Shown here piece by piece: positions 5,600-39,658 of a stretch of 56,495 nt of DNA (the first letter of the stretch is position 1; each line of letters starts with the position of its first letter). The DNA is taken from positions 1 through 56,495 of IMG/VR virus record IMGVR_UViG_3300025010_000071; one strand, 5' to 3'. A program made the position numbers and the translations under genes. The stretch comes from a virus. Under the pieces are notes generated by a model that had not been told where the DNA came from, ran no database searches, and saw only the letters and a program-made list of their open reading frames with translations.

Positions 5600-7594
5600 A
5601 TGGAATTTAAAGAATTCAAAGTGGCGGTACAAGAACAGTTCAAGAGGATGCAGGGGGCCAATCTGTTTCGGGTAAATTTGGATAAAGATGTTCTTTGGAA
5701 AACATATCTGGAAAGTTTTCCTGAAGGAACAAACCCTATATTTCGTGAACGAACGGAACATGACTGCCAGTGTTGTAAAAGTTTCATTCGAGCAGTTGGT
5801 AATGTTGTTACTATTACCAATAACAAAATAGAAAGTATTTGGAATATCAATATTGGTGGGCATTATCAAATTGTTGCTGATGCAATGGCAAAATACGTTG
5901 AAAGTTTCCCAATTGATAATGTATTCCTTCATGCTGAAAAAACAGCTGGAACAGATAAAAACTATCAACAATTGGAGAACGGGGAAGTATTAGGATGGGA
6001 GCATTTCTTTATTGATGTTCCCAGCAAAAACTACTGTAAAGGAATTGATATTGGTACAAAGTTATCAGAATACCGAAGCACATTTGATGTAATGTATCGT
6101 GGACTTGAAGAAATAACGGTTGATTCTATTGAAACCGTTTTAGAACTCATCGCCCAGAATTCTCTGTATCGTGGGGAAGAACATTTACATTCCGTAAAAT
6201 CATTTCAGGCACTAAAAAATGAATTTGACAAATCGGATAGTAAAATTCTATTCTGTTGGAACAAGGTTTGGATTACCCCGACTGTTGCGAGAATTAGAAA
6301 TACTTCTATTGGTACTCTTCTGGTTGACATATCAGAAGGAATAGATTTAGAAAAAGCAGTCAAAGCGTTTGAGTCCAAAGTTGCCCCGCACAATTATAAA
6401 AGAACTTCCGCAGTTGTGTCAAAGTCAATGGTTGAAAGTGCAAAGAAAAAGTTGGAAGAACTCGGTCTGGTTGAAGCTCTTGAAAGACGACATGCAGTCA
6501 TTGAAGATATTTCCATAAACAATGTGCTGTTTGCTGATCGTGCTGCAAAGAAGAGAATGGATGTATTCGATGAGATTGCTGCAAAGACAACAAAGATTCC
6601 GAAGAAATTGGAACGTGTCGAATCAGTGGATATTGAGACATTCGTCAAAGAGATTCTTCCAAGAGCGGAATCGATTGAACTGATGTTTGAGAATAAGCAC
6701 ACTTCCAATCTGGTGAGTTTGATTGCTCCGGCAATGCAGGGAAAGAGCATGTTCAAATGGGATAACAACTTCTCATGGTCGTACAATGGCGAGGTTGCTG
6801 ATTCGATCAAAGAGCGGGTCAAGAAAGCCGGGGGCAATGTCGGGGGATATCTCAGATTCTCCCTGTCATGGTTCAATTTTGATGATCTTGACTTGCACAT
6901 GGTTGAGCCAAATGGATATGAAATTTTTTATGGGAACCGAGGATTTAATAGTCCTTGTCGGGGAACGCTTGACGTTGATATGAATGCCGGTTCGGGAACC
7001 ACCAGAACCCCTGTTGAAAATATCTGCTATTCCGATAGGAAGTATCTAAAGGATGGAACTTATCGACTGTTTGTACAACAATTCAGTCAAAGGGAATCGA
7101 AAGATGTTGGGTTTGAGGTTGAGTTTGAAGTTGAAGGCAGAATGGAGACACTAACTTATGACAAACCAGTAAAAGGTAATGTCCCTGTTCTTGAAATTAA
7201 GTATTCAAAAACGGATGGTATAAAGATCATCAAATCTCTTCCGTCCTCGCAGTCAACAAAGGAAGTTTGGGGAATCAATACACAGCAGTTCCATAAGGTC
7301 AATGCAGTTATGTTTTCCCCGAATTATTGGGATGAGAAGGCAACAGGAAACAAACATTACTTCTTCATGCTGGATGAGTGCAAGAACATGGATTCAGCAA
7401 GGGGTTTCTACAATGAGTTCCTGTCGTCAGAACTAGATGCCCATCGGAAAGTTTTTGAGATTCTTGGATCGAAGATGAAGGTTGAAAACTCAGAGAATCA
7501 ACTGAGTGGTCTTGGTTTCTCTTCAACCCAAAGGAATGAGGTTCTTTGTCGTGTAACTGGGAGTTTTTCCCGCACAATCAAAATCACTTTTTAA
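5600..7594 (+). CDS. Large phage protein with DUF2135/YfaP-like domain
   Basis: 664 residues. About residues 420-520 hold the pattern LSWFNFDDLDLHMVEPNGYEI followed by Gly/Asn-rich strands, characteristic of the DUF2135/YfaP beta-sandwich. The N-terminal half contains CQCCKSF and helical segments of unknown fold; the C-terminus ends in a beta-rich segment. I have seen similar proteins in many large phages next to the small helical protein that also follows here. No activity is established. It is the largest early gene and has its own ribosome binding site (AAGGAG), possibly with a promoter at about 5566. Confidence 0.7.
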   Translation: MEFKEFKVAVQEQFKRMQGANLFRVNLDKDVLWKTYLESFPEGTNPIFRERTEHDCQCCKSFIRAVGNVVTITNNKIESIWNINIGGHYQIVADAMAKYVESFPIDNVFLHAEKTAGTDKNYQQLENGEVLGWEHFFIDVPSKNYCKGIDIGTKLSEYRSTFDVMYRGLEEITVDSIETVLELIAQNSLYRGEEHLHSVKSFQALKNEFDKSDSKILFCWNKVWITPTVARIRNTSIGTLLVDISEGIDLEKAVKAFESKVAPHNYKRTSAVVSKSMVESAKKKLEELGLVEALERRHAVIEDISINNVLFADRAAKKRMDVFDEIAAKTTKIPKKLERVESVDIETFVKEILPRAESIELMFENKHTSNLVSLIAPAMQGKSMFKWDNNFSWSYNGEVADSIKERVKKAGGNVGGYLRFSLSWFNFDDLDLHMVEPNGYEIFYGNRGFNSPCRGTLDVDMNAGSGTTRTPVENICYSDRKYLKDGTYRLFVQQFSQRESKDVGFEVEFEVEGRMETLTYDKPVKGNVPVLEIKYSKTDGIKIIKSLPSSQSTKEVWGINTQQFHKVNAVMFSPNYWDEKATGNKHYFFMLDECKNMDSARGFYNEFLSSELDAHRKVFEILGSKMKVENSENQLSGLGFSSTQRNEVLCRVTGSFSRTIKITF

Positions 7595-8920: not shown

Positions 8921-10237
8921 ATGGTTACAGAATCTAAATTGAAACCATTTGCAATCTTTGACTCTACCTTGCAGGAATTCCAGAAAAAAGGAAGGGAAAA
9001 GGAACCGTATTACATGGAAGCCTATTTCTTGTACAGCTTTTACTATTCCCAAGCACTGAAACAAGATACACATTCAGTTTACTGTACAAAAAATTGGACA
9101 ATGGAAGTAACAGGGATATCGGTTAGAAAGCTTCATGGTGCAAGAGATTTACTACAGAGAATGGGTTTAATCTCTGAGTACGAGTACAGTCCTGAACATA
9201 ACAAATACTTTTTCACAGTTAAAGTGGATACATTGGTAGATGCAGAGGTAGGGGGGATACGGAGCGTAGGGGGGGAGGGGGGTACGGAGCGTATATGCAA
9301 TTCTCCTACTAATATTTATTCTCCTACTATAAAACCCATTAATATAAATATTAATGAATCCAGTTTAGAAAAACCAACTGACAAGCAAAAGTTTATCCGA
9401 AAAGATATTGCTCAAGAACCAGAAGAGAAAGAAAAACCATTGCTTGTTAAAAAGATAATAAGACCATCTTTTGTAGATTCAAACGGAAAATATAGGGAAA
9501 CCAAAAAGAATGTGGATTCTATTGAAATAGCGGCAAATATTAAACACGCACTGGAATATTGGAACAGTAAGGAGGAACTGGTTACACATACCATAAATGA
9601 AGATAGCCCGTCAAAAACCTTGCTGCATTGTGTCCAGTTAATCAAAATGTTTTTCTCTGGTAAACTGATTAAACATGCTTTATTGCCAAAAAATTTCGAT
9701 CAGTCTTTATGGAAAGGGGGAAGACAGACACTGGAAGATTGGAAATATTTTGTTGATGAAATTTGTTTATGCTTGAATGATCCTGGTTTATTGCCTAAGA
9801 AGAACGGTAAAGCATTGGCACTGCCTGTATTCCTTGAGGGAAGTGAACGGTTAGAGTTGCCCGCTTTCATTTTCAATTACTGTTTGGGCGACTACAAGAC
9901 AGCAACAGTTGATGTAAACCCGAAGAACACCATTAAGATCAAGACATTTTGGGAACAGTTAATTGGTAAGTTTAAAGATACACCAGAGAATCAGAAAGCT
10001 TTTGTAGCCATAAGTAATCTCAGTGAACAGACATTTGCCGAAAGGAGAAAGGTAAATAAAAACTGGATACCTGCAATGAATGAATACTTTCCCGCTAATA
10101 TTGTCAAGAGTATCTTGCGACAGAATCTTTGGATAAAGGAGAAGGGACACCAGCCCGTGTATATGGATACAAAGTTCTTTAAAGGAATGGTGTCCCGCTA
10201 TGACTATGATCGCACTACAGGGAAAATCATATTTTAA
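8921..10237 (+). CDS. Winged-helix replication initiator-like protein
   Basis: 438 residues. Residues about 25-110 form a winged helix: CTKNWTMEVTGISVRKLHGARDLLQRMGLISE, then a beta wing. A low-complexity linker follows (about 110-180), then a C-terminal domain of about 250 residues. The arrangement matches phage initiators in which a DNA-binding head and a helicase-recruiting tail flank the origin inside the gene, as in lambda O. The gene precedes a DnaB-like helicase, supporting this. Not firmly assigned to a named family. Confidence 0.7.
   Translation: MVTESKLKPFAIFDSTLQEFQKKGREKEPYYMEAYFLYSFYYSQALKQDTHSVYCTKNWTMEVTGISVRKLHGARDLLQRMGLISEYEYSPEHNKYFFTVKVDTLVDAEVGGIRSVGGEGGTERICNSPTNIYSPTIKPINININESSLEKPTDKQKFIRKDIAQEPEEKEKPLLVKKIIRPSFVDSNGKYRETKKNVDSIEIAANIKHALEYWNSKEELVTHTINEDSPSKTLLHCVQLIKMFFSGKLIKHALLPKNFDQSLWKGGRQTLEDWKYFVDEICLCLNDPGLLPKKNGKALALPVFLEGSERLELPAFIFNYCLGDYKTATVDVNPKNTIKIKTFWEQLIGKFKDTPENQKAFVAISNLSEQTFAERRKVNKNWIPAMNEYFPANIVKSILRQNLWIKEKGHQPVYMDTKFFKGMVSRYDYDRTTGKIIF
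9251..9355 (+). other. Candidate replication origin inside the initiator gene
   Basis: The linker-coding part of the initiator gene has three G-runs (9251-9256, 9269-9275, 9277-9282) and two copies of TACGGAGCGTA (9258-9268, 9283-9293), each an imperfect palindrome. Next come two copies of TTCTCCTACTA (9301-9311, 9319-9329) in AT-rich DNA, and a perfect palindrome ATTAATAT/ATATTAAT (9338-9355). Repeats followed by an AT-rich stretch inside an initiator gene is the lambda origin plan. Direct observation: the repeats. Inference: origin function. Confidence 0.55.
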
Positions 10238-10275: not shown

Positions 10276-10542
10276 ATGAGTGATAACACTAACCCTAAGC
10301 CGTTAAATCCCGAAGGAATCTCCGCTATTCCTGAAGGGGGAAATGATACAGAACAGGAGAAGCAGACGAGAAAGATAAATGCTTGGGTTTCTCAAGCAAT
10401 AGAAGCCGAACTTATGATGGAAAAGATAAAAGAGTCCAAGATAGTTTGTCCAGTATGCAGCATCTCTTACAAGTATGATGGAAATCTTCACGATACCTAT
10501 TTCTTTACTCCACAATGTAACTGTCCTTTAAGGAGAAACTAA
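10276..10542 (+). CDS. Small zinc-ribbon protein before the helicase
   Basis: 88 residues from ATG 10276 (MSDNTNPK), with GAGG eight bases upstream; the in-frame ATG at 10243 lacks a site. A Pro/Glu-rich, probably disordered start is followed by a helix and a metal-binding end with CPVC and CNC spaced 24 residues apart. Overlaps the helicase start by one base. Perhaps a helicase-loading or replisome accessory, by position only. Confidence 0.6.
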   Translation: MSDNTNPKPLNPEGISAIPEGGNDTEQEKQTRKINAWVSQAIEAELMMEKIKESKIVCPVCSISYKYDGNLHDTYFFTPQCNCPLRRN

Positions 10543-12053
10543 TGGGACTGGTACGAGTAGAGGAAGTGGATAATGTTACAGAGGAATTAATCATAGCCGG
10601 AATGATATCCAGTAATTCATATCTTTCCTATGTTGCGGAGAGGTTACAGTTACGGTACTTCCGAAGTGATCAGTGTAAAGTAATTGCAAAATTAATACTG
10701 GAGTTTTTCAGTAATCATAAACGGTCCCCCGGTGCCAGTATGCGGGAGCTTTATGAATCGGCTATCGATGATCTACCAGAAGATGATGCCTTCATTATCG
10801 GGAGGTTGCTGAAGAACATTGCAAAGAAATATGGTTACAGAGAAATATCCTTTGAAGTATTGAAGGACACTACTGATGGTTATTTTGAGGTTAGATCAGT
10901 TGAAACTTTGGTAGATAAAATATCAGGGTTGACTGCTCGCGGCAAAACCGAAGAAGCTTTAAAAGAGATTGATGAATGGTACAAAGATCCAACAAGGCAT
11001 ATCATTTCTTCTATCAGTCCATTTGATACATCTATGGCTGAAGCAGTTATGACTGCCGATAGATTGCTCTATAGATTCAAGAATGATCTGGACTCAGTGC
11101 TTCCACCACAAATGTCAAACAAACTGTATACGTTTCTTGGTGGAACTAAATCAGGCAAGTCTCAGTGGTTAGGCCACCTTGCGGTCTGCTTTGCAGAAGC
11201 AGGTTTGAAAGTGGCTATATGGCAGTTTGAGTTGACAGAGACAGAATACATTGGCAGGTTAATGTCTAATATATCTGGTAAAGAAATAGATCCAAGACAT
11301 GACAGGGATACCAAAGATGTAGAATTATCCGTATTCGATTGTGAGCATAACAGGGACAGAAGTTGTGCAATGGAAGACTGTCCAAATAATGAAGACTTTG
11401 AATCGTTTGACAAGTACGTTCCAGAAGCATGGACGCCATGCTGTTTCTGTAAAGGGCATCCGGAATTTAGTCCTGTAGTATGGAAGATGGAAGCAAAGAT
11501 TGGTGTAATCAATTCCATTAACTCATTGAAGAAGGAACAGATTACATGGTTAAGACAATTCGGTGACAATATCAAAATGTTTCCTGGTGAATCTGGTCAT
11601 GTAACTTCAGAAGATGTAAAGAACCAACTGTTACGGTTACGGTTATCAGAAGGGTTTATTCCAGATGTAATAATTATTGATCAAGCTGATAATATTGCTG
11701 CAAGTTCTCGGTATCATGAAAAGAGACATGAGATAGGTAGTGTGTGGTTGGACTTAGCTACTCTTGCCAAGCAGGGATACCTTGTTTGGACTGCTAGTCA
11801 GACGAACAGGGGTGGGTGGGGTAAGGAATGGATAGAGACTTCCGATGTAGGGGAAGATGCAAGTAAGTTTATGGTGTGTTCTGGTGTTGTTACGATTAAC
11901 CAGTATAAAGGTGGGGACTTTGACGAGTACGAATGGAATACCCAAAGGTTAAGGGCATTCTATTTCAGAAATGCGAAGATACCTGGACGGGACGTCCGAG
12001 TGCTGAACGACTTCTCTCGGTACATTGCTTGTCTTGATTGTTGTAAAATGTAA
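10542..12053 (+). CDS. DnaB-like replicative DNA helicase with zinc insertion
   Basis: 503 residues. An N-terminal helical DnaB-N-like domain (to about 110) is followed by a RecA-fold ATPase. Walker A is GGTKSGKSQ near residue 202 and Walker B is VIIIDQADN near 380. A Cys-rich insertion between them (about residues 265-310) has DCEHNRDRSC, MEDCPN and PCCFCKGH and probably binds one or two zinc ions. Role: 5'-3' hexameric helicase at the fork, partnered with the primase at 3638 and the initiator just upstream. Confidence 0.85.
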   Translation: MGLVRVEEVDNVTEELIIAGMISSNSYLSYVAERLQLRYFRSDQCKVIAKLILEFFSNHKRSPGASMRELYESAIDDLPEDDAFIIGRLLKNIAKKYGYREISFEVLKDTTDGYFEVRSVETLVDKISGLTARGKTEEALKEIDEWYKDPTRHIISSISPFDTSMAEAVMTADRLLYRFKNDLDSVLPPQMSNKLYTFLGGTKSGKSQWLGHLAVCFAEAGLKVAIWQFELTETEYIGRLMSNISGKEIDPRHDRDTKDVELSVFDCEHNRDRSCAMEDCPNNEDFESFDKYVPEAWTPCCFCKGHPEFSPVVWKMEAKIGVINSINSLKKEQITWLRQFGDNIKMFPGESGHVTSEDVKNQLLRLRLSEGFIPDVIIIDQADNIAASSRYHEKRHEIGSVWLDLATLAKQGYLVWTASQTNRGGWGKEWIETSDVGEDASKFMVCSGVVTINQYKGGDFDEYEWNTQRLRAFYFRNAKIPGRDVRVLNDFSRYIACLDCCKM

Positions 12054-12980: not shown

Positions 12981-13815
12981 AAAAATAGGACACCATGCTA
13001 CTTACTGGGATGGTAAAAGTATGGTAGATTCCTGGAGTAATACATGGGAACATACTCTTCCAGAAATTAAACCATATCCATATATGCATATAAAAGATAA
13101 TCTATTTGGTATGCCGTGGTTAACCGGAGATGCAATTAAATTCAAAATGGATATTCAATTTATCCAGAGGAACATTATGCCAATCCTATTAAGGGAAGTT
13201 CAATACACATTTAGTGGTGAAGTGGGACACATAGTCCAAGGTTCTCCGATCCTTTTAATACGTACCCAGGGATGTAATATGGAATGTCCCTGGTGTGACG
13301 CTCAAGGTTCACAGGACTTTGAACATGGTCTGTCTGTAGATCACCGAGTACTAGCAGAGTTGATGTACAATTCAGCTTTTCCTATTCTGCTTACTGGTGG
13401 TGAACCACTGTTGCATTCCAAAGCTATTTTAGAAGCACTGTGTTTATTGGATAATATTTACAACGTCCGTAGAACGGTGCAAATTGAAACAAATGGTTCA
13501 ATAGCCATAGATCCAGAATTACTTACGTACGCCACATTTGTTGTTGATTATAAGTTCCAGTATCAGCATCAAATGAAACGGGAAAATTATGATCTGTTGA
13601 CTAACAAAGATTGGATCAAGTTATTAGTTACTGACCAAGATGATATTTTAAAATTAAAACAGTTTATTGAGGATTTTCCGATTGACACAAAAGCTAAATT
13701 GGCAGTGTCCTGTACTGACAACCAACTTTATAAGGAAGTCTGTGATTTGGTACTTGACAACAAATGGCCCATTATTGTAAACGTACAGATACATAAACTT
13801 TTAGGGATAGCATAG
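12970..13815 (+). CDS. queE: 7-carboxy-7-deazaguanine synthase (radical SAM) with N-terminal extension
   Basis: 281 residues from ATG 12970. From about residue 70 it is QueE: YTFSGEVGHIVQGSPILLIRTQGCNMECPWCDAQG with the CX3CX2C cluster site, then LLTGGEPLLH for SAM binding. It converts carboxytetrahydropterin to 7-carboxy-7-deazaguanine using a [4Fe-4S] cluster. QueE normally starts near the position of ATG 13177, which has its own AGAGGA site, so 69 extra Trp-rich residues are either a real extension or untranslated. No stop interrupts them. Confidence 0.9.
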   Translation: MVNEKIGHHATYWDGKSMVDSWSNTWEHTLPEIKPYPYMHIKDNLFGMPWLTGDAIKFKMDIQFIQRNIMPILLREVQYTFSGEVGHIVQGSPILLIRTQGCNMECPWCDAQGSQDFEHGLSVDHRVLAELMYNSAFPILLTGGEPLLHSKAILEALCLLDNIYNVRRTVQIETNGSIAIDPELLTYATFVVDYKFQYQHQMKRENYDLLTNKDWIKLLVTDQDDILKLKQFIEDFPIDTKAKLAVSCTDNQLYKEVCDLVLDNKWPIIVNVQIHKLLGIA

Positions 13816-13828
13816 GAGGTGGTTCCCG

Positions 13829-13972
13829 TTGTCTGAAACTAAAACTTTAAAGTGTAAAAAATGTGGTTGGGAATGGGTTCCCAGAAAGGCAGATGTAAGG
13901 CAATGCCCGCATTGTAAAACAGCGTACTGGAATGTGGACAAGAAAGAAATACAACCAAAAAAGGAGAAGTAA
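13829..13972 (+). CDS. 47-residue double zinc-ribbon protein
   Basis: TTG start at 13829 with AGGAGGT upstream. The protein has CKKCG at residues 9-13 and CPHC at 26-29, a standard rubredoxin-like or zinc-ribbon spacing, with a Lys-rich tail. Similar tiny zinc ribbons are common in phages and probably bind nucleic acid or protein. Too short for ordinary gene-length cut-offs but well supported by start site, motif and tight fit before the next gene. Confidence 0.7.
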   Translation: MSETKTLKCKKCGWEWVPRKADVRQCPHCKTAYWNVDKKEIQPKKEK

Positions 13973-13973
13973 A

Positions 13974-14579
13974 ATGGGTGAAGTTAACGAGGTAAAGGAA
14001 GTCAATGCCGCCAATCTGAAGAAAGCAGTCAAAGAGTTGAACGACCTGGCAGTAGAAGGGGTTGCCAAAATCAGGACAGTTGGAATCAATGTCAATGATA
14101 TGGCTCTCCAGTTTATCAAAGCCTGTAATGCCGTGAATGACATTGATGAGAAACTTCTCACTGATTCAATGGTGGAAGTATATAATTCCCTTCCTGCCCC
14201 GGAAGAGTTGGCGGTAGCTCAGAAGGCACCGAAGGAGAAGAAAGCCAAGGAGCCCAAAGAGAAGAAGGTAAAAGCACCGAAAGAGCCCAAGGAAAAGAGA
14301 GAGCGTAAGGGGCCACATGATGGTGCAGCCCGCAGCCGTTACAATCATCTTCAGGGAGCAAAATCTGGTAAGCTTGATGATGAACTCTTTGCTGGTGGTA
14401 CGATGGAAGATATCATGGCCAAGTGTGAAGTTCCCATGCTCCGTGTAAAGGGACATGCAAAGCATCTGGTTAACGATCTTGGTCTGACCTTGACCATTAC
14501 CGAGAATAAGGAAGACCCGATGAAGTCCAAGTACAAGATCAAGGAAGAGAAGTGGTCTGCTGAAGCCGCAAAAGAGTAG
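13974..14579 (+). CDS. Lys/Pro/Ala-linker protein with C-terminal conserved domain
   Basis: 201 residues from ATG 13974, served by AAGGAG. The helical N-terminus (about 1-70) is joined by a KEKKAKEPKEKK-type basic linker (about 78-115) to a C-terminal domain (RSRYNHLQGAKSGKLDDELFAG ... KGHAKHLVNDLGLTL). The linker looks histone-H1-like and may bind DNA. GC content is a little higher than in the neighbours. It ends just before a strong terminator, so it is the last gene of this transcript. Confidence 0.6.
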   Translation: MGEVNEVKEVNAANLKKAVKELNDLAVEGVAKIRTVGINVNDMALQFIKACNAVNDIDEKLLTDSMVEVYNSLPAPEELAVAQKAPKEKKAKEPKEKKVKAPKEPKEKRERKGPHDGAARSRYNHLQGAKSGKLDDELFAGGTMEDIMAKCEVPMLRVKGHAKHLVNDLGLTLTITENKEDPMKSKYKIKEEKWSAEAAKE

Positions 14580-14602
14580 CAGTAAATGAAGTCAGTCTGA
14601 TT

Positions 14603-14646
14603 ACAATGGAACCGGTACATTAGTTACCGGTTCCATTGTTTAAACT
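14603..14646 (+). terminator. Rho-independent-type terminator
   Basis: Perfect 15-bp stem: ACAATGGAACCGGTA (14603-14617) with TACCGGTTCCATTGT (14625-14639), 7-base loop, then TTTAAAC. The stem centre is GC-rich, the U-run short. Separates the queD-queE transcript from folE. Confidence 0.75.
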
Positions 14647-14663
14647 CTACCAAAGGAAAAGAA

Positions 14664-15266
14664 ATGATTTCTAAAGTAACATCAAAGGTTGATTACATTT
14701 TGCTGAAGAAAGCGGCAGAATTAATCATTGAAGCTATTGGTGAATCTCAATTAGACCCGAATTTTGCTGGTACTCCTGATCGATTTGCCAGGGCGTTTTC
14801 TTCTTTCTTCATGTTACCGGCAGAAATAGAACAACAGATGGAAGAAATTCTCAGTGTGTCCTTCCCAACAAAAGGGTACAGGGGAATGGTTTTCTGTACC
14901 GGAATTGAAGTAGTATCATGGTGCCCACATCATTTACTGCCAGTACTGTATGATATCACTATAGGGTATATTCCTTCAGAGAATGGTAAATTACTTGGTG
15001 CATCTAAACTTGCCAGACTTGCTGATATTCTCTGTAAAAGAGCGGTTCTGCAAGAAGACCTTACTAACCATATTGCTTCATCTATTGAAGGATTAACTGA
15101 AGCTGACGGTGTTGCAGTAGTGGTAAATGGTAGGCATGACTGTATGCGTATTCGTGGAATCAAACAGATGAATTCTGTATTCAAAACTTCGGAAATGCGG
15201 GGATCGTTCAAGACAAATCCAGAAACAAGGGAAGAGTTTTTCCACCTTATTGCAAATGGAGATTGA
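14664..15266 (+). CDS. folE: GTP cyclohydrolase I
   Basis: 200 residues, full length for type I. Zinc ligands and active-site motifs are in place: SWCPHHLLPV (Cys, His), LLGASKLARLADILCKR, QEDLTNHIA, GVAVVVNGRHDCMRIRG with the third zinc Cys, then the conserved EMRGSF. It opens the GTP imidazole ring to give dihydroneopterin triphosphate, the first step toward preQ0, feeding QueD. A phage copy raises precursor flux for DNA modification. Confidence 0.94.
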   Translation: MISKVTSKVDYILLKKAAELIIEAIGESQLDPNFAGTPDRFARAFSSFFMLPAEIEQQMEEILSVSFPTKGYRGMVFCTGIEVVSWCPHHLLPVLYDITIGYIPSENGKLLGASKLARLADILCKRAVLQEDLTNHIASSIEGLTEADGVAVVVNGRHDCMRIRGIKQMNSVFKTSEMRGSFKTNPETREEFFHLIANGD

Positions 15267-23345: not shown

Positions 23346-25946
23346 ATGAAGATTAAAAGTTTCTGGAATGATGGGCCTGCCATCAGTGAGGATTGTGATT
23401 CCTGTGGGCTTCACACTATTTGTAAATCACCATTCTCAAAACATTACGGTAATGGTAGATTGAATGCTTTGATCATTACTGGTAAACCTTCTGCTATTGA
23501 AGACAGTAAAGGATTTGGTTTCTCAGGGGAAACAATGGATACCATGAAAGAATTCTTTTCCAGTGTAGGAGTGAACCTGGAGAACAATTTCTGGAAAACA
23601 TCTGCTGTCTCCTGCTACAGTAAAGGGGAAATAAAAGATGACCATATACTGAAATGCAAACCGAATCTGATAGACAAGATCAAGGAACTAAAACCTAAGT
23701 ATATTTTAACTGTTGGGAATGCTGCAACAAAAGCTGTTCTTGGTAAGATAGGCAGGAAAACCCCAGCACTTGAAACTCTGGTTATGAGGGCCATTCCTGT
23801 ACATGAATATGGTGCCTGGGTTTTGCCTATGCTGAACCCAGGCAAGATGAAGACAGAGAATCAGAAAGCTTATTTCGGCAGACTGGTTAAGTTTGTTATG
23901 GCTGAGATAAAACAGAAGAAAGAATTGGTAAAGGTAAATCCATTTGAGAATGTAAAAGTCCTAATAGAGTACAAGGATATTATAAATGGACTGGAAGACC
24001 TGTTATCCGATTCTGATTTCGTTTCCTCAATTGATATTGAAGGAACTGGTTTAAAACCACAGTATGAAAAACACTGCATTACTTCTGTTGGTATATCTAC
24101 CAGAAAGGGAACAATAGCTTTTCCACTTGACCATAGTGAAGTTACTTTTTCCGATCAAGCCTACAACAATATTGTTGAGTTACTTGTGGAATATCTGGAA
24201 AGAGAAGATATCAAAAAGATCGCCCACAAGTTGCAATTTGACACAATGTGGTTAGAAACTATTCTTGATTGCACTGTTAATGGATGGTTGCAATGCACCA
24301 ATATAAATCAGCATCTTCTGGATCATAGAACAGGGGCCAAAGGATTAAAGGAACTTTGTTTCCTTAAATGGGGGATCAGGGATTATGATAAAAAAGCCGA
24401 CAAGTATATTGAAGCTGACAGGCAAGGGGCAAAGGAACTCAACAGAATGCGGGAAATGCCCCTGTACGATCAATTGCTGTATGTAGGGGCTGACGCCTAT
24501 CTTACCCTTAAACTAAGCGATGACGAGGACGAAGAATATCGGCAACTTGATTCTAAGAAGAAATATTACCCTCGCATCCTGTTTACTGAAAGTGCCAGAA
24601 CTTTATGCACTATGCAAGAGAATGGTATTCCGATAAATGCAGAATATTATGTAAAGGCAGAAGAGGAAGTAACTGGTAAGATCCAGGATTTAGAAGAGAA
24701 GATAGCCAATGAACCGTATGTAAAGAAGTTTACCAATCTGTATCGAAAGAAATTTGAGCATTCAAAGCCAGCCGATCTGAAGAGACTGTTCTTTGAAGTG
24801 ATGAAACTGGATGCTAAGAAACTGGGAACTACTGATGGTGGTAATATCTCTTTAGATGAAAAGGCACTGAAGGATATTGGTTTACCCATATGTGAAGATA
24901 TTTTATCTTTAAGGAAATTGCTGAAAGTACGGGATACATACCTGTCCCAGTTTGCAAGAGAAGAGGTTAATGGAAAGATTCATCCGTTTTTTAACTTAAC
25001 AATTGCAAGGAGTTACCGCTCAAGTAGCACCCAACCGAATTTCCAAAATATTCCCAAGAGGGATGACTACGCTAAGAAGATAACAAGAACTGGGATTGTA
25101 ACCGAACCTGACTGTGGTATTGGTGAGATTGACTTTTCCGGAGTTGAGGTTTGTACATCGGCAGCGTATCATAAAGATCCAAACTTTATTGCATACCTGA
25201 CTGTTGATGGGTCTGATATGCATAGGGACAATGCTTGTGATATTTGGCAGGTTCGTAAAGAGAATCTGGATGAAGATGGAAAGATCAGATTCTATATAAA
25301 GAATCAATGGACATTCCCTCAGTTCTACGGTGATTACTGGGGAAGTTGTGGTCCACAGTTATGGGAAACTGCTATCGAGAAAGAGAAATTTGTTCTACGA
25401 AATGGTACCCCATTAGTGGAACACATGCACGATAAAGGAATCCATAATGTAGACGATTTCCTCAAGCATTGTAAGAAAGCGGAAGAGAAAATGTGGAATG
25501 AACGGTTTAAAGTTTATACTGCATGGAAGAAAGAAGTAAACGATTTCTATATTAAGTACGGTTACGTGGAAACGTATTTAGGTTTCAGATTTTATGGTCT
25601 ACTGGACAGAAAGCAGACAACCAATTACCCCATACAGGGAACAGCGTTTCATATCCTGCTGTGGTCTATCAACCGTATACAGGAGTTTATCAAGAAAGAG
25701 AAATTACGGTCATACCTTTGTGGTCAGATTCATGATTCTTTGGTGTTTCAGTGGTACCCAGAGGAACGTGATTACTTATTGACGGAGATGAATGAAGTAT
25801 GTTCTAAGAGAGTGCTAAAGGAATTTGAATGGATCAACGTCCCTTTCAAAATTGATGTGGAATTGTCAAAGGTAAATGGTAATTTTGCAGGGTTATCTAA
25901 ATATGTAAAATCGGGGGATATATGGGTACCGAAACCAAAGAAGTAA
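23346..25946 (+). CDS. Family A DNA polymerase fused to a UDG-like Fe-S domain
   Basis: 866 residues in three parts. Residues 1-195 resemble family 4 uracil-DNA glycosylase: four Cys (CDSCGLHTIC, VSC, LKC) for an Fe-S cluster, but the catalytic Glu and His positions are changed (TGKPSAIED, LNPGKM). Residues about 220-400 are the 3'-5' exonuclease with DIEGTGL, KLQFD and YVGADAYLTL. The rest is PolA: IDFSGVEV motif A, KNQWTFPQFYG motif B and QIHDSLVF motif C. It is the phage replicative polymerase; the UDG-like part is probably non-catalytic. Confidence 0.92.
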   Translation: MKIKSFWNDGPAISEDCDSCGLHTICKSPFSKHYGNGRLNALIITGKPSAIEDSKGFGFSGETMDTMKEFFSSVGVNLENNFWKTSAVSCYSKGEIKDDHILKCKPNLIDKIKELKPKYILTVGNAATKAVLGKIGRKTPALETLVMRAIPVHEYGAWVLPMLNPGKMKTENQKAYFGRLVKFVMAEIKQKKELVKVNPFENVKVLIEYKDIINGLEDLLSDSDFVSSIDIEGTGLKPQYEKHCITSVGISTRKGTIAFPLDHSEVTFSDQAYNNIVELLVEYLEREDIKKIAHKLQFDTMWLETILDCTVNGWLQCTNINQHLLDHRTGAKGLKELCFLKWGIRDYDKKADKYIEADRQGAKELNRMREMPLYDQLLYVGADAYLTLKLSDDEDEEYRQLDSKKKYYPRILFTESARTLCTMQENGIPINAEYYVKAEEEVTGKIQDLEEKIANEPYVKKFTNLYRKKFEHSKPADLKRLFFEVMKLDAKKLGTTDGGNISLDEKALKDIGLPICEDILSLRKLLKVRDTYLSQFAREEVNGKIHPFFNLTIARSYRSSSTQPNFQNIPKRDDYAKKITRTGIVTEPDCGIGEIDFSGVEVCTSAAYHKDPNFIAYLTVDGSDMHRDNACDIWQVRKENLDEDGKIRFYIKNQWTFPQFYGDYWGSCGPQLWETAIEKEKFVLRNGTPLVEHMHDKGIHNVDDFLKHCKKAEEKMWNERFKVYTAWKKEVNDFYIKYGYVETYLGFRFYGLLDRKQTTNYPIQGTAFHILLWSINRIQEFIKKEKLRSYLCGQIHDSLVFQWYPEERDYLLTEMNEVCSKRVLKEFEWINVPFKIDVELSKVNGNFAGLSKYVKSGDIWVPKPKK

Positions 25947-38927: not shown

Positions 38928-39658
38928 TAAATGAGGAATTCTGTTGTGTACGGGCAGCAACTATTGAAGATGCTTGGCGAGAAGTAATGTGGTTGTGTGT
39001 TAAAAAAGGATATGACTTTATGGTAAAGGGTGGGTCATACGTTGGTCAGATACGCAAACAACTGGAAGATGTAAAGATTGTAATAGATAAACCGTGGATC
39101 AGGCCACTTGCTCCTATCTTACCCCCAGGTATACCTGCACCAACAAGTGATGAAAAGATTGAAGAGTATTTCCATCGTTATATTTTTGGTTCAGAGAAAC
39201 GGGAAAATGAAGTTTATACTTATGGTGAGTTTATATCCAAACAATTAGGTAGGGTACTAGGATTGTTGGTAGAATCTAACGGTAATTCAAATCAGGCAAC
39301 TATTTGCATTGGTAATATAGAAACTACTTACCTGGATGATCCACCGTGTCTCAGGTCCATATCATTCAAAGTAGTTGACAATAAATTGAATATGACTGTA
39401 TACTTCAGGTCATGGGACCTGTACGCTGGTCTACCAGAAAACCTTGGTGGGTTACAAAGGCTGAAAGAATTTGCTATCGATTATTTATTAGATGGAGGGC
39501 TTAAAGTTACAGATGGGAAGATTATTGCATTCTCAGACGGTTTGCATTTATATGACCAATACTTCCAGATAGTGGATACTTTAAATGTGGACAAGGTACA
39601 GGTGGGTGCTCAAGCATTACTGGATAAAAAAGAATTCCTGGCTAAAGAAGGAATTTAG
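38924..39658 (+). CDS. Thymidylate synthase-family enzyme
   Basis: 244 residues, resembling the short archaeal-type ThyA. Start VRAATIEDAWREVMWL; catalytic Cys about 142 in YLDDPPCLRSI; phosphate and folate elements YFRSWDLYAGLPENLGGL. The Asn in GLPEN corresponds to the residue that selects dUMP; dCMP hydroxymethylases have Asp there. So dUMP is the likely substrate, methylated or hydroxymethylated at C5. The very N-terminal Arg loop is shorter than in E. coli ThyA. Confidence 0.8.
   Translation: MINEEFCCVRAATIEDAWREVMWLCVKKGYDFMVKGGSYVGQIRKQLEDVKIVIDKPWIRPLAPILPPGIPAPTSDEKIEEYFHRYIFGSEKRENEVYTYGEFISKQLGRVLGLLVESNGNSNQATICIGNIETTYLDDPPCLRSISFKVVDNKLNMTVYFRSWDLYAGLPENLGGLQRLKEFAIDYLLDGGLKVTDGKIIAFSDGLHLYDQYFQIVDTLNVDKVQVGAQALLDKKEFLAKEGI

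Follow-up and report, generated by a model that had tools for sequence, protein, structure and literature searches.

A candidate lambda-type replication origin inside the gene for an O-like initiator of an uncultured phage

The linear virus record IMGVR_UViG_3300025010_000071 (56,495 bases, referred to as the window) carries a gene for a replication initiator of 438 residues at 8921-10237 on the plus strand, which was assigned as O-like by a phrog_345 profile match and by hhalign. Positions 9251-9358, within the part of the gene that encodes the linker of this protein, very probably form a lambda-type replication origin. A lambda-like origin inside the initiator gene had been proposed in a sequence-only reading of the window, and the proposal was supported by the O-like character of the gene, by repeats at the codons that hold the iterons in lambda, by an easily melted region on the same side of the repeats, and by an identical pair of sites kept in a related phage.

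Repeats, G-runs and palindrome

Two copies of the 11-bp sequence TACGGAGCGTA (arms TACG/CGTA) were found on the plus strand at 9258-9268 (candidate initiator-binding site 1) and 9283-9293 (candidate site 2). The sites are spaced 25 bp, occupy codons 113-125 and are read in different frames; TACGGAGCGTA occurs exactly twice in the window. Three G-runs (9251-9256, 9269-9275 and 9277-9282, plus strand, spanning 9251-9282) lie before and between the two copies, are kept in the relative, and could form a G-quadruplex. Further downstream, the 12-bp sequence ATTCTCCTACTA is directly repeated at 9300-9311 and 9318-9329 (plus strand, 18 bp apart, same reading frame), and is followed by the perfect AT-rich inverted repeat CATTAATAT-AA-ATATTAATG at 9337-9356; both elements are identical in the relative. 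The perfect AT palindrome itself covers 9338-9355, and 9337-9356 when the flanking C/G is counted. The three G-runs, the two repeat pairs and the palindrome of the sequence-only reading were thus all present at base level, except that the second repeat, of which two copies do exist, had been noted as TTCTCCTACTA, one base short of the full ATTCTCCTACTA. DNA hairpin folding of the repeat region was no stronger than in shuffled sequences, and a global stem-loop was ruled out as the signal on this ground.

A single close pair of 11-mers is unremarkable in 56 kb (block-shuffle mean 1.75). The window contains seven close repeat families (one hexamer array excluded); two of the seven lie within 72 bp here, and these two, TACGGAGCGTA and ATTCTCCTACTA, are the only ones found again at the corresponding position of the relative. 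When the initiator gene was shuffled synonymously 20,000 times, the two 11-bp sites were never identical. Runs of six G or C were rarer in the window than expected (9 hits against 20.3), and four of the nine fall inside a single 32-bp stretch of the repeat region.

Easily melted region

According to nearest-neighbour energies, the 60-mer at 9299-9358 (no strand assigned) is the least stable of the window (rank 1 of 56,435) and is a candidate DNA unwinding element. The 40-, 60- and 80-mers with the lowest stability in the window are all located within 9292-9371, and the same stretch of the 86.6 kb relative ranks first, second and first in instability for these three lengths. Synonymous resampling with the peptide fixed reached the instability of 9299-9358 at P = 0.0025, and the peptide would therefore explain the weak duplex in part only. 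No DnaA box (TTATCCACA, up to one mismatch allowed) was found between 5686 and 10127, and a DnaA-type origin was ruled out because such boxes are absent nearby.

Comparison with the one relative

The collections searched contained a single relative carrying the initiator gene: the viral contig IMGVR_UViG_3300024999_000067 (G001; 86,588 bases), whose initiator shares 90% protein identity. No homologue was found in 50,697 phage records, in 72,556 plasmid records or in genomes of bacteria and archaea, and a sequence search of the PDB gave none either. Searches anchored on the primase gave one further related contig (L015), which stops short of where the initiator would be expected. The relaxed pattern GTAGGGGGG...GGGGGGTAC matched 52 viral stretches, among which none besides the known relative had an initiator-linker-like context; the other matches, whose contexts were read, are different elements, mostly in short non-coding frames. 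Within the same collections, with their one relative, no phage keeping the initiator protein without the repeats was found.

In the relative, both 11-bp sites have changed alike, from TACGGAGCGTA to TACGGTCCGTA (AG to TC), and each version occurs exactly twice in its own genome. Dyad symmetry is retained, as TACG-nnn-CGTA in the window and TACGG-T-CCGTA in the relative. Site 1 reads R-S-V in both phages, the change from AGC to TCC being silent for Ser, whereas site 2 reads T-E-R in the window and T-V-R in the relative (Glu to Val). AG is replaced by TC at only five of the 3022 aligned AGs between the two genomes, and two of these five are the two sites; the formal probability that both sites would be hit is about 2e-6, ignoring possible copy-to-copy homogenisation and shared descent. 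The strongest argument for selection on the DNA, and not on the peptide alone, is this paired change in two frames. Conservation of the repeats beyond protein need, which the sequence-only reading had anticipated in relatives, thus held in this one: despite the change, the sites remain an identical pair across two frames.

Divergence between the two phages is uneven along the gene. Synonymous divergence (dS) was 0.90 in the N-terminal head, 0.016 in the linker (where synonymous change is almost nil, 0.5 of 31.8 sites) and 0.17 in the C-terminal part. Base divergence was 23% over 8921-9240, 11% over 9241-9313 and 1.4% over 9314-9600, with a single change point at 9203-9216. The stretch with the sites, 9241-9313, is more diverged than the DNA downstream (8 of 73 against 4 of 287 positions, Fisher P 0.0005) and less diverged than the head. 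The synonymous divergence of 0.90 points to recombination as the source of the head, and the sites seem to have arrived with it. Because the head is diverged, 9241-9313 is intermediate and divergence then drops to 1.4%, head and sites behave like one cassette.

Survey of O-like genes

Thirteen O-like or O-related genes of known phages were surveyed, a small set picked by similarity to lambda O, with lambda as the known positive. Direct repeats of at least 9 bp, mostly spaced 20-24 bp, were present at codons ~93-145 in ten of the thirteen (lambda, P22, HK225, Klebsiella 5 LV-2017, Proteus V3, SPN9CC, Mannheimia, Vibrio K66, PAJU2 and Providencia). In these ten, the weakest 60 bp of the gene starts at or beyond the repeats (codons 124-163). 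The window fits this pattern, with sites at codons 113-125 spaced 25 bp and its weakest 60 bp starting at codon 127.

The initiator protein

Residues 31-156 of the initiator matched phrog_345 ('replication initiation O-like') at E 5e-4 in the profile search. When the protein was aligned by hhalign with nine O-like proteins, the E-value was 0.0022 at a probability of only 13%, and the alignment was collinear with lambda O (initiator residue 29 onward on lambda residue 50 onward). The head (residues 1-107, 8921-9241, plus strand) is a predicted DNA-binding domain. A winged helix, which had been proposed from the sequence, was now predicted with good confidence by AlphaFold2 (predicted local distance difference test (pLDDT) 83, predicted template modelling score 0.77, in a model with three sequences), with the recognition helix at residues 68-80 and wing strands at 88-90 and 95-100. 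An earlier full-length model was too poor (pLDDT 35) and was set aside. Fold searches with the head gave weak matches throughout (best E 0.0015 among viral proteins and 0.0056 in the PDB), which include phage replication initiators, a putative protein O, a lambda-O N-terminal-domain protein, a replisome organizer and winged-helix regulators. Taken together, the evidence for an O-like initiator with a predicted N-terminal DNA-binding head is weak but consistent.

The recognition helix differs between the window and the relative at residues 70, 72, 74, 76 and 79. These differences are consistent with a changed specificity and are no proof of it; differences are not obviously enriched in this helix over the rest of the head. 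The C-terminal part, from residue 174 (9440-10234, plus strand), is 98% identical in the relative, matches phrog_26189 (function unknown) weakly, and is the probable helicase-recruiting part, by analogy with lambda.

A stand-alone protein of 97 residues, with 39% identity to the winged-helix head, is encoded at 15051-15344 of L015. It has neither linker nor C-terminal part, and is perhaps a regulator of initiation.

GC skew

The turn in GC skew that had been expected near 9.3 kb was absent, the third-position skew being 0.19 to the left and 0.18 to the right. The sign of the skew changes at ~40 kb, where gene orientation switches, and the relative behaves alike. In lambda, too, the sign changes at the orientation switch (~38.0 kb) and not at ori (39.03-39.17 kb). 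Since skew follows gene orientation and the site lies in a co-oriented gene block, the result was regarded as weak or uninformative evidence.

Alternative explanations

Several points weigh against an origin at 9251-9358. Similarity of the protein to O is weak by both the phrog_345 and the hhalign measures, and GC skew lends no support at 9.3 kb. The sites number only two and both are shorter than those of lambda, in place of four or more sites of 18-19 bp; site number and length are not treated here as defining, as both vary among O-like genes. The joint change of the sites is a single comparison with the one relative, and recombination between repeats 25 bp apart could have homogenised the copies. 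Such homogenisation (by recombination or slippage), rather than selection for protein binding, might account for the joint change; the relative even has a perfectly repeated 17-bp unit. We consider this very improbable: it leaves unexplained that the dyad ends are kept, that the weakest DNA of the window lies next to the sites and that other O-like genes have the same layout, and it would in any case be compatible with an origin.

The repeats could also be peptide-level low complexity of a flexible linker, without meaning as DNA. The linker peptide is indeed repetitive (NSPT/YSPT and GG motifs) and the ATTCTCCTACTA copies share a frame, but the 11-bp sites encode different peptides in two frames, are nevertheless identical in both phages and have changed together. 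As their identity was never reproduced in synonymous shuffles and the weak duplex goes beyond the demand of the peptide, this explanation seems hardly credible. Somewhat less remote, and still improbable, is that the initiator binds the sites for autoregulation, as a roadblock or operator in its own gene, while the true origin lies elsewhere, for example at a conserved array of GGTCAN hexamers at 1601-1786 that all three related contigs share. Autoregulation is common among initiators, and a promoter-like match on the minus strand overlaps the palindrome, such matches being no more frequent than in shuffles. Autoregulation would not need the weakest duplex of the window directly beside the sites, the layout matches that of lambda-type origins, and none of the five least stable regions of the window lies beside the array. 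A lambda-type origin in the linker-coding DNA thus remains the preferred explanation.

The hexamer array consists of 31 copies of GGTCA[A/G/T] and was located at 1601-1786 of the window, 7095-7292 of G001 and 7922-8143 of L015. Across the three contigs it varies almost only at the sixth base; if coding, it would read Gly-Gln/His or Ser-Gly/Arg/Trp.

Replication genes and proposed mechanism

The initiator gene is followed by an open reading frame of 99 residues and by a gene for a DnaB-like replicative helicase (10542-12053, plus strand; phrog_19, E 3.9e-33), the expected cargo of the initiator; the gap between initiator and helicase genes is 304 bp. The window also encodes a DnaG-like primase with a CHC2 zinc ribbon, a family A polymerase, a clamp, a clamp loader, a gp32-like single-stranded DNA-binding protein, a RecA/UvsX-like recombinase, a ligase and a 5'-3' exonuclease. 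No lambda-P-like gene was seen in the window. As replisome genes are encoded by the phage, the initiator probably works with the phage replisome, as in P22, where a DnaB-type helicase gene comes next, and not via a P-like loader.

In lambda, O dimers bind the iterons, and negative supercoiling lets the AT-rich 40 bp beside them open; the C-terminal part of O presumably binds P, which in turn delivers DnaB (PMC5043065, PMC6022878). By a similar scheme, the winged-helix head of the window initiator would bind the two TACGnnnCGTA sites, probably as dimers, and the complex would strain the adjacent AT-rich 60 bp (9299-9358) until they open. The C-terminal part would then bring in the phage's own DnaB-like helicase, and the phage primase, polymerase, clamp and clamp loader would start the forks. 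We guess that the G-runs either keep one strand single via a quadruplex or act as stiff spacers.

A bolder version, which we regard as rather unlikely, holds that head and sites move between phages as one specificity cassette, that quadruplex-forming G-runs work in origin opening, and that the phage brings its full replisome. If true, this would make it a lambda-type origin in variant form, able to work without a helicase loader or helicase from the host.

The two phages are a natural experiment on the joint change of a binding domain and its sites in DNA that also has to encode protein in two frames, and their two heads and two sites make a recognition pair that is directly testable.

Other features were recorded outside the candidate origin. 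G001 (L008) has a 1.2 kb insertion between the initiator and helicase genes (~13503-14774), of which the longest open reading frame is NUDIX-hydrolase-like by eye. The family A DNA polymerase of the window (23346-25946) is fused to an N-terminal uracil-DNA-glycosylase-like domain. A 664-residue phrog_1735 protein encoded at 5600-7594 has ~53% identity to phiCbK-like Caulobacter phage proteins, and no nucleotide match to its gene was found in G001. A motif resembling GACATACATTCCGGGTAGGGGGGAGGGGGGTACC, apparently non-coding and often with TGTCAA/TGTTAA words after it, recurs in many viral contigs (L035, L042, L046, L048, L050, L053, L056, L077 and ~20 more loci) and is unrelated to the initiator. 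A second conserved element, ATAATATTTTTGGGTAGGGGGGTTTTTyArGTAGGGGGGTACAAC, is common to ten viral contigs (L032, L037, L040, L043, L045, L047, L062, L063, L069 and L072).

Comparison with known systems

Iteron plasmid origins (Rep/RepE/pi type) likewise have replicon-specific repeats beside an AT-rich opening region; the window differs in that the sites lie inside a gene and that DnaA boxes are absent from the surrounding DNA. The origin in gene 18 of P22 (NC_002371, where rep_origin is annotated in the gene) and those of relatives such as Proteus phage V3 resemble the window in having repeats at ~codons 118-140 spaced 20-24 bp, the weakest 60 bp from codon 137-140, and an initiator gene followed by a phage DnaB-type helicase gene. 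Their sites are different (TCGGTAAAAC, TGTCACCAAA), are present in three or four copies, and have no G-runs between them.

Lambda ori in gene O (NC_001416, four iterons at 39034-39118) shares with the window an O-like initiator with an N-terminal DNA-binding head, repeats in the linker codons (117-145 in lambda, 113-125 here), inverted-repeat sites and an AT-rich region downstream of the repeats (PMC5043065). Lambda has four sites of 18-19 bp spaced 20-24 bp, whereas the window has two of 11 bp with G-runs between. In lambda the next gene is P, a helicase loader, and host replication proteins are used; in the window, the phage helicase gene and the phage-coded replisome genes stand in place of a visible P-like gene. 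What sets the window apart from lambda is the different site sequence, the limitation to two short sites, the G-runs between them and the self-sufficient replication module. The lambda-type plan, in which an initiator gene contains the origin that its own product recognises, would thereby extend to an uncultured group of phages with a polymerase, clamp, clamp loader, primase and helicase of their own.
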